DNA from: Candidatus Hydrogenedentota bacterium
GTDB taxonomy: Bacteria > Hydrogenedentota > Hydrogenedentia > Hydrogenedentales > JAEUWI01
Reading direction: 5' to 3'
Assembly (NCBI GenBank): GCA_019637335.1
Contig: JAHBVV010000010.1
Coordinates: 62,001-126,000 of the forward strand
DNA length: 64,000 nt
The notes beneath the pieces were generated by a model. It saw only the letters and a program-made list of their open reading frames with translations. It ran no database searches and was not told where the DNA came from. A program made the translations under genes and the position numbers. Every line of letters begins with the position of its first letter. Within the stretch, counting starts at the first letter, position 1. This document shows, one piece after another, positions 6,205 through 9,113 of the stretch.

Positions 6205-6269
6205 GATAGGCCGTCAGCCGACATAGGGCGTTTCGCGTCCTTTCCGACGATTAGAAAGACAGGAGCCGC

Positions 6270-9113
6270 ATGATTCTACGCATATTGAACACCGCTGTCA
6301 TTGTATTGGCCGCAGCCTCTCTGCCGGCCGATGTTTTCGAGGGGGCGGAGTGGCTTCGGGACCCGCGCATGGCGGATCAGCCCATCGTCAATCAACTCGC
6401 CCGGGCCAGCGTCCCGGCGCCCGAGGCCGTAGGCCCGAAAAACGTGCACACCCTGCTGCGCAAGGAAATCGCGCTCAAGGCGCGGCCATCGAGCGCCATG
6501 CTTTACATCACGGGCGACGACTACTACCACTTTTTCATCAATGGCAGCCCGGTGGTGCAGGGTCCGGAGGGGGGGTATCACTTTTCTCACCCCTACTACT
6601 GGCTGGACGTGACGGAATTCCTCGATGCGGGCGCAAATTGCCTGGCGAGCCACAGCTACTACCAGGGGCTGCGCAACCGGGTGTGGGGCAGCGCCGACAA
6701 CCGGTCGGGCTTCATGCTGCGCCTCGAAGTGACGTACCCGGACGGCGCGACGGAGGAGTTCGTGACGGATTCCTCCTGGAAAGCGCACTCCTTGCAGGCG
6801 TTTCCGGGGGAGGAGACCGTGGGCTACCAGACCCAGTTTCTGGAGCATATCGACATGCGCCAGATGCCGTCCGGCTGGGCGCTTGTGGGATTTGACGACA
6901 ACGCCTGGGCGGCGCCGCTGACGGGGCGGCAGGATCATGTTTTCGCGCGGCAGGCCACGCCGCCGCTCCAGCGCTACCGCATCGATCCGCCGGTTAGAAA
7001 AGACCTTGGGAACGGGGCCTGGTTCTACGACTTCGGCGTCGGAATCGTGGGGCAAACCCGGGTGGAGATCCAGGGGCCGGAAGGCCACACGATCACGGTC
7101 CGGCATGCCGAGGAACTGGACGAAAACGGGCGGGCGCGCTACAAGATGCGCGCGAACATCACCTACGAGGAGAAGCCCGTGCTTTCCGGGGGGAAGGACG
7201 TCATCCCCTTCTACGATTACCGCGGATTTCGCTACATCGAGGTGCTGGACGCGCCGGAGGAGCCGGAGGTGTGGGTCATGGCGCGGCACCATCCCTTCGA
7301 TCCCGCCGCGAGCGCATTCACTTCGAGCGATGCCGAGCTGGAGCAGATCTTCCGCATCTGCAAGAACGGTATCCACATGGGCTGCCAGGGCGGCTTCCTG
7401 GATTGTCCTACGCGTGAAAAGGGGCAGTACCTCGGCGACGCCGTGATCGCGGCGCGGGCGCAGATGTGGCTGACGGGCGACGCGAGCCTGACGCGCAAGG
7501 CGCTCTACGAGTTCTATCTTTCCTGCCAGGTGCACCCGGGCATGCTGGGCGTTGCGCCGGGGCATTTCATGCAGGAGATAGCCGAGTTTCCGTTGCAATA
7601 CGCGCTGCTGTTGGAGCAGTACTACCAGCGCACCGGGGACCGCGAGTTCGTTCAGCTGATGGCCGACAACGTGTTTCCCGGGTTGTACGGGTATTATTCG
7701 GGGTTTGAGAACGAAGCCGGGCTCATTGTGGGCTTGGAGCGCTCCGAGAAGTGGCTGGTGGTCGACTGGCCACCGAACCTGCGGGATGGCTACGACTACG
7801 ACCTCTCCATCACCAACGGGAACACCGTGCTGAACGCCTTTTACTATGGCGGGCTTCGCGCGGCGGCGCGCATCGAACGCGCGCTGGGCCGTGACGGGCA
7901 GGCGCACGATGCGCGGGCGGACCGCCTGGAGGAGGCTTTTGCCGCACACGTCGCGAATCCGGAAACCGGGCTGTACCGCGATGCGCCGGGCTCCGAACAC
8001 AGTTCACTGCACGCCAACGCGATCCCGCTGGCCTTCGGGCTGACGGCGGGCGCGGATCCGGCCCGGATGCTGGCGCTTATCGAGGAAAAGGGCCTCAATT
8101 GCGGGGTCTACATCGCCTCCTACGTGATTGAGGCCTGTTTCCGGGCCGGCGCGCCGGACCTGGGTTTTGCGCTGCTGACGAACGATACCGATTTCGGCTG
8201 GAAGGCCATGATCCGCGCAGGCGCCACGACCTGCATGGAGGTTTGGCGTCCCGAGCAGAAGCGCAACGCGAGCTGGCTGCACCCGTGGAGCAGCAGCCCG
8301 ATTTACATCCTAGCCGAGCATGTTTTCGGGCTCAGCCCGGGGAGTCCCGGTTTCGAAACAATCCGGTTCGCGCCGCCCGCGATTTCGAACCTGCCCGCGA
8401 TGACCTTAACTGTGCCCCATCCCAAAGGCCCGTTGACGGTGGAATACGCGCCGGAATCGGGGTATGCGATCCGCGCGCCCGAGGGTGTTTCCGTGGAGCG
8501 CGTCGCGCCCGCTGATACCGTGCGGCAGGCCGCCAACACACCCGCCAGCCAGGGAGGACCCGCCATGATCGATGCATTTCAGGAATACCTCGATACCTTC
8601 GGCTGGGAAAAGCGCGTTGGCGCGGGACTTGGCGTGTGGGTTTCGGTGGATGAGCAGCGCCTGCGGCTGATTCAGGGCGGGAAGGTAGTCTGGGATGTGC
8701 CCTGCGCTACGGCGTCGGCGGGCACGGGATCGGTGTCCGGAAGCCTTCAGACGCCGCTCGGGTGGCACCGGGTCGATTCCAAGTTTGGCGATGGCGCGCC
8801 GTGGGGGCAGGTCTTTCGCTCGCGTGTGGCGACCAAGGAAGTCTGGAAGCCGGGCCAGGACACGAAGGAGGACCTGGTGCTTACGCGGGTGCTCTGGCTG
8901 GATGGCCTGGAGCCGGGGAAGAACCAGGGCAAGACGGGAGACGGGGTGCTGGTGGATTCGAAGGAGCGCTGCATCTATATCCACGGAACCAACGGCGAGG
9001 ACAAGATCGGGACGCCGTCCTCTCATGGGTGTATCCGCCTGCTGAACGACGATGTCCTGCTGGCGTTCGAGCGTATCCCGCTGGAGACCCCGGTGCTGAT
9101 TACTGAACGCTGA
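6270..9113 (+). CDS. GH78-like alpha-L-rhamnosidase fused to an L,D-transpeptidase
   Basis: This is one 947-residue frame with two unrelated enzymes. Residues 1-~20 form a signal peptide. Residues ~40-750 are a GH78-type glycosidase: an N-terminal beta-sandwich lectin-like region, then an (alpha/alpha)6 barrel with the DCPTREKGQYLGD motif. Residues ~766-947 are a YkuD L,D-transpeptidase with an HGTNG segment and the catalytic SSHGCIRL. YkuD enzymes crosslink peptidoglycan or attach proteins to it; GH78 enzymes release rhamnose from glycans. ATG at 8565 (codon 766) has a strong in-frame Shine-Dalgarno, so the second domain may also be made alone. AGGAG precedes the first ATG. The fusion may have arisen by loss of a stop between neighbouring genes, or could reflect a sequencing error. 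Confidence 0.85.
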   Translation: MILRILNTAVIVLAAASLPADVFEGAEWLRDPRMADQPIVNQLARASVPAPEAVGPKNVHTLLRKEIALKARPSSAMLYITGDDYYHFFINGSPVVQGPEGGYHFSHPYYWLDVTEFLDAGANCLASHSYYQGLRNRVWGSADNRSGFMLRLEVTYPDGATEEFVTDSSWKAHSLQAFPGEETVGYQTQFLEHIDMRQMPSGWALVGFDDNAWAAPLTGRQDHVFARQATPPLQRYRIDPPVRKDLGNGAWFYDFGVGIVGQTRVEIQGPEGHTITVRHAEELDENGRARYKMRANITYEEKPVLSGGKDVIPFYDYRGFRYIEVLDAPEEPEVWVMARHHPFDPAASAFTSSDAELEQIFRICKNGIHMGCQGGFLDCPTREKGQYLGDAVIAARAQMWLTGDASLTRKALYEFYLSCQVHPGMLGVAPGHFMQEIAEFPLQYALLLEQYYQRTGDREFVQLMADNVFPGLYGYYSGFENEAGLIVGLERSEKWLVVDWPPNLRDGYDYDLSITNGNTVLNAFYYGGLRAAARIERALGRDGQAHDARADRLEEAFAAHVANPETGLYRDAPGSEHSSLHANAIPLAFGLTAGADPARMLALIEEKGLNCGVYIASYVIEACFRAGAPDLGFALLTNDTDFGWKAMIRAGATTCMEVWRPEQKRNASWLHPWSSSPIYILAEHVFGLSPGSPGFETIRFAPPAISNLPAMTLTVPHPKGPLTVEYAPESGYAIRAPEGVSVERVAPADTVRQAANTPASQGGPAMIDAFQEYLDTFGWEKRVGAGLGVWVSVDEQRLRLIQGGKVVWDVPCATASAGTGSVSGSLQTPLGWHRVDSKFGDGAPWGQVFRSRVATKEVWKPGQDTKEDLVLTRVLWLDGLEPGKNQGKTGDGVLVDSKERCIYIHGTNGEDKIGTPSSHGCIRLLNDDVLLAFERIPLETPVLITER
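8551..8567 (+). promoter_or_regulatory. internal ribosome binding site and ATG for the L,D-transpeptidase domain
   Basis: AGGGAGGA at 8551-8558 is followed six bases later by an in-frame ATG at 8565, exactly at the junction of the two domains. The 182-residue product would be a complete YkuD domain without its own signal peptide. Confidence 0.6.

Follow-up and report, generated by a model that had tools for sequence, protein, structure and literature searches.

This locus raises three questions: whether a glycosidase and a YkuD enzyme encoded in one open reading frame form a single gene, what the YkuD half does, and whether that half is also made on its own from a start codon inside the frame. 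The window (the whole stretch of DNA that was analysed, 64,000 nucleotides) belongs to contig C10 of the metagenome-assembled genome G000, Candidatus Hydrogenedentota, and its closest named matches bear that name. A previous sequence-only reading had described the gene as a rhamnosidase fused to a peptidoglycan transpeptidase.

Gene structure and domain assignment

The frame (947 amino acids) runs on the forward strand from the ATG at 6270 to the TGA at 9113 without interruption. Its product combines a signal peptide, a complete GH78 α-L-rhamnosidase and a YkuD domain in a single frame, which bears out the sequence-only reading on this point; relatives keep the frame at full length. The exported two-enzyme protein proposed there agrees with the N-terminal signal peptide predicted on the fusion from its hydrophobic core, signal peptides having been judged throughout by hydrophobicity only. 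The GH78 domains were found with Pfam at scores over the curated cut-offs, except for PF17390 (20.9 versus 22.1 bits). An AlphaFold2 model of the fusion, made from three sequences, had a mean pLDDT of 40 and was unusable. The following features were assigned:

6261..6265, + strand: Shine-Dalgarno sequence AGGAG of the main start at 6270 (sequence)
6270..9113, + strand: fusion gene, 947 aa, predicted signal peptide, GH78 and ElsL-like YkuD (open frame; Pfam; same architecture in 30 genomes)
6270..6329, + strand: predicted signal peptide MILRILNTAVIVLAAASLPA (hydrophobic core here and in other fusions)
6483..6962, + strand: GH78 N-terminal domain PF08531, aa 72-231 (Pfam)
7005..7268, + strand: GH78 concanavalin-like domain PF05592, aa 246-333 (Pfam)
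7308..8324, + strand: GH78 catalytic (α/α)6 domain PF17389, aa 347-685 (Pfam; RhaB alignment)
8328..8519, + strand: GH78 C-terminal domain PF17390, aa 687-750 (Pfam, slightly below the cut-off)
8520..8564, + strand: variable inter-domain linker (alignment of 25 complete fusions)
8551..8558, + strand: candidate internal Shine-Dalgarno sequence AGGGAGGA (match of at least 5/6 in all four genus members)
8565..8567, + strand: candidate internal start codon, M766 (ATG, TTG, ATG and ATG in the four genus members)
8565..9113, + strand: ElsL-like YkuD domain, 182 aa (Pfam; NCBIfam; catalytic residues)
aa 789-944, + strand: PF03734 YkuD (Pfam)
8982-8984, + strand: YkuD catalytic H905
9030-9032, + strand: YkuD catalytic C921

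The candidate internal Shine-Dalgarno sequence and its ATG do lie at the domain boundary, as had been claimed, between the GH78 C-terminal domain and YkuD. In the alignment of the 25 complete fusions the linker region (745-778) usually comprises 28-38 residues.

Distribution of the fusion

A search of related genomes located the one-frame GH78-YkuD architecture in 30 of 68 Hydrogenedentota genomes (window genome included) and in 8 of 11 families; four of the 30 copies are cut by contig ends. The complete fusions share 44-70% identity with the window protein. A single scan of genome contigs with the window protein gave matches in Hydrogenedentota only. In the 25 complete fusions, distances within one half were correlated with those within the other (Mantel r 0.71, a value reached in 0 of 2000 permutations); trees of the two halves largely agreed on the family groups, although they conflicted in places (G005) and many of their branches were weak. 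The G021 fusion (968 aa) is not broken, its TAA being its normal end. No gene neighbourhood of the fusion is conserved beyond the genus; only an upstream PPIase gene recurs. Judged from these comparisons, the fusion is real and old in Hydrogenedentota.

Identity of the YkuD half

Among all NCBIfam models, NF040925 (ElsL) was the best match of the YkuD half, and no other was covered almost from end to end (112.4 bits, profile positions 9-160 of 164). With 112 bits against a curated cut-off of 270, membership of the ElsL family is not established; the resemblance nevertheless shifts the activity to be expected. NCBIfam transpeptidase models gave at most 31 bits, over the active-site motif only, and the PDB matches also covered the motif region, mostly of proteins named transpeptidases; in both collections, similarity to characterised transpeptidases is thus confined to that region and does not extend over the full length. 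The ElsL model was matched by all 58 YkuD relatives scanned, and His905 and Cys921 are invariant in these 58. As a control, the two other YkuD proteins of the genome match LdtE models, and match ElsL weakly or not at all. Pfam and the common HGT...SHGC motif cannot separate a carboxypeptidase from a transpeptidase. The designation "peptidoglycan transpeptidase" is probably wrong, since among characterised proteins the L,D-carboxypeptidase ElsL is the closest relative over the full length.

In Acinetobacter baumannii, ElsL works in peptidoglycan recycling as a cytoplasmic L,D-carboxypeptidase; it has no leader, has a catalytic Cys and replaces a missing LdcA (PMC8649774, PMC9239154). The full-length fusion has the signal peptide and the accessory domain that ElsL lacks; the 182-aa product of the internal start alone would have neither. 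LdcA (PF02016), which usually carries out this reaction in bacteria, was absent from 67 of 68 genomes of the phylum, the exception being G036, which has it twice; the same search detected it in 6 of 14 control genomes.

Variation at the active site was seen in five fusions (L018, L020, L063, L077 and L035), in which the His of SHGC is replaced by Met, Gln or Lys, and in family f7, which is without the Arg after the catalytic Cys; the YkuD activity of both sets may differ. Another YkuD protein of the window genome (contig C24, L108, 2015-3622) has a PilZ domain at its N-terminus, encoded in one frame with YkuD; the pairing is unusual.

GH78 half and envelope context

Residues D378, E383, D390 and E657 align with D567, E572, D579 and E841 of RhaB (PDB 2okx), the catalytic acids of that enzyme; the matching residues are kept in at least 24 of the 25 complete fusions. 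The GH78 half shares 25-26% identity with the other GH78 proteins of the genome and forms a separate group; three of those proteins fit the Pfam model much better. G000 encodes two Omp85 proteins, which makes an outer membrane likely; no LptD was detected in this genome. Since Omp85 and the dTDP-rhamnose pathway enzyme family RmlC are both present, the organism may make rhamnose for its own envelope. The suggestion that the fusion attaches a rhamnose-processing enzyme to the wall found no support: the halves have repeatedly separated in evolution, and no sign of wall attachment was found.

Separation of the two halves

The genes collected comprise twenty-four stand-alone YkuD genes, five with a decayed or truncated GH78 part, and several GH78-only genes. 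Gain and loss cannot be distinguished from an unrooted tree by itself; the direction is readable from the sequence itself in at least two lineages. The stand-alone YkuD genes of G055 and G047 retain the signal peptide of the fused gene of G049 (same genus), so in such lineages the fusion was the earlier state, with the GH78 half lost later by internal deletion and the signal peptide kept. G043 retains the fused linker of G041, and G004 the end of GH78. One copy in G013 consists of YkuD and only the end of GH78 (L061, 2764-4365) and another of GH78 only (L062), with a signal peptide common to both, apparently as expected if a duplicated fusion gene had divided its two jobs. In genus g29 both halves persist as separate genes. 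A frame shift in the linker of G030, which may be natural or an assembly error, leaves YkuD in a leaderless frame, its ATG overlapping the GH78 end.

The exported form clearly matters, as nearly all stand-alone YkuD relatives have a signal peptide (judged by hydrophobicity) or a lipobox.

Further arrangements were noted. The same YkuD domain lies behind ankyrin repeats in G018 (L052, 3296-4888) and, in G056 (L046), follows a frame that contains membrane segments and is truncated where the contig ends. In G003 a GH78-only paralog (L079, 1-2196) precedes the fusion by about 1.5 kb, in the same orientation, and ends just short of the position equivalent to the internal start site of the fused copy.

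The internal start site

The GGGAGG within AGGGAGGA ends 7 nt before the ATG at 8565. A Shine-Dalgarno match of at least 5 somewhere in the 20 bases upstream was found for 27 of 268 internal in-frame ATGs in the long open frames of the window, including two other ATGs of the fusion gene itself. The combination in one genome alone is unremarkable and constitutes weak evidence; the site is notable only because it is kept in all four genus members. There, ATG, TTG, ATG and ATG occupy the same aligned place, with a match of at least 5/6 at a spacing of 7 nt, in a linker that around them is otherwise hardly alignable. Within the 920 aligned columns of the fusion gene this combination is shared by all four members at only one place, and it is shared by all four at none of the 1204 aligned columns of the control genes, glgA and a kinase (2,124 columns in total for the three genes; gdhA was left out, having no orthologs in two genus members). 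Compared with most other internal ATGs, the internal start has weaker local RNA structure around it, although in one species the difference is slight. The three closest species share 70 invariant Gly columns; GGA is the codon in all three species at just one of these, the first Gly of QGGP.

Across the phylum, a good Shine-Dalgarno match precedes 8 of 20 linker ATGs in the fusions and 5 of 440 in the rest of the genes. Synonymous codon shuffling gave a mean of 2.9 such linker sites, and none of 300 trials reached 8. The excess persisted when counted by genus (P = 0.008), when counted by genus under another linker definition with stand-alone genes included (P = 0.03) and, at a smaller size, with ATG, GTG and TTG pooled (P 0.02). 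The enrichment is moderate. The test was designed after the data were seen, and related genomes are not independent. Most genera have no ATG with a good match in the linker. Such sites also lie between signal peptide and YkuD in four stand-alone exported relatives (G011, G039, G042 and G057), in which group the excess is not significant.

Use of the internal start is suggested by these data. The proposal that it could release a free transpeptidase domain without a signal has become more credible as to the site, which is conserved in all four genus members; its use is suggested only, and the word "transpeptidase" in it is probably wrong.

Evaluation of the explanations

The best explanation, to which we would give somewhat less than an even chance, is an ancestral exported rhamnosidase/L,D-carboxypeptidase gene that in the window's genus, and perhaps in others, also yields a leaderless carboxypeptidase. 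Translation from 6270 would give a protein exported to the periplasm, in which the GH78 half would take terminal α-L-rhamnose, or a sugar like it, off a glycan that either belongs to the envelope or has been imported. A flexible linker would connect it with an ElsL-type YkuD domain, expected to cut the terminal D-Ala off tetrapeptide stems as an L,D-carboxypeptidase. In the window's genus, 8565 would probably serve ribosomes as a second start, giving the 182-aa YkuD domain alone, without signal peptide; this form would stay cytoplasmic as a recycling L,D-carboxypeptidase, the role of LdcA or ElsL elsewhere, in an organism presumed to recycle its peptidoglycan. The internal start gains a possible purpose because YkuD resembles a cytoplasmic enzyme and LdcA is so widely missing. 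That one gene serves two compartments in this way, with the long product exported and the leaderless carboxypeptidase replacing LdcA in recycling, is put forward tentatively. In the stand-alone lineages a cytoplasmic form is not obviously needed, since with a signal peptide or lipobox the exported form would suffice.

There is an appreciable chance, though we lean against it, that translation yields the full-length exported protein and nothing shorter, the internal site being a by-product of a Gly/Glu-rich linker. Both halves would then be periplasmic, with YkuD trimming stems as an L,D-carboxypeptidase like Csd6 of Helicobacter pylori, a known example of this fold and activity outside the recycling pathway (PMC4599014). 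The export of the stand-alone relatives, the lack of the site in most genera and the SD-like stretches upstream of roughly 10% of internal ATGs in the window's frames are in keeping with this. Against it, the site is kept at one position of an otherwise unalignable linker in four of four genus members, with the sole Gly column of 70 that has GGA in all three closest species, and synonymous shuffles yield fewer linker sites.

A genuine L,D-transpeptidase activity of the YkuD half is unlikely; it would make the protein an exported glycosidase-transpeptidase on or near the sacculus, active in 3-3 cross-linking or protein anchoring. The catalytic His and Cys, the Pfam name of the domain and the names of most PDB motif matches would fit, as would the varied accessory domains of known L,D-transpeptidases described in the part of a 2025 review consulted (PMC12729407), which names no glycosidase-fused example. 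Against this stand the full-length match to ElsL, with transpeptidase models matching the motif only, and the genome's own two other YkuD proteins, which do match LdtE.

The alternative offered by the sequence-only reading, two genes joined when a stop codon was lost, and sequencing error are ruled out by 30 genomes from separate assemblies that share the single frame, and an artefact or strain-specific event is extremely improbable even though G030, the only separated neighbour found, has two overlapping frames at the linker, the joint frame there having been lost by the linker shift.

In the literature searched, no paper mentions a rhamnosidase together with YkuD, or a rhamnosidase with a transpeptidase and fusion. 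That a rhamnosidase is linked to an enzyme of cell-wall peptides throughout an almost uncultured phylum points to an uncharacterised glycan metabolised at the wall. If used, the internal start would neatly allow a single enzyme to be placed on each side of the membrane, and would provide an L,D-carboxypeptidase, apparently lacking otherwise from these genomes.

Comparison with known systems

The fusion shares its domain order and all four RhaB catalytic acids with the GH78 enzymes RhaB (2okx) and SaRha78A (3w5m); it differs from them in its C-terminal YkuD domain and in belonging to a phylum-specific group with a DCPxREKGQYLGD motif. With the YkuD L,D-transpeptidases (LdtA-E, LdtBs) it shares the HGTxx...SHGC catalytic motif, to which the similarity is confined. 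Csd6 and Pgp2 (Helicobacter, Campylobacter) likewise have the YkuD fold and act as L,D-carboxypeptidases, but carry a different accessory domain and gave no match as full-length relatives. ElsL (LdtK) stands alone in the cytoplasm, whereas the Hydrogenedentota domain is fused behind a GH78 half predicted to be exported; the two are alike in that YkuD is matched over nearly the whole model, in that LdcA is missing in both, and in that the internal-start product (182 aa; model 164) would be leaderless and of similar size.
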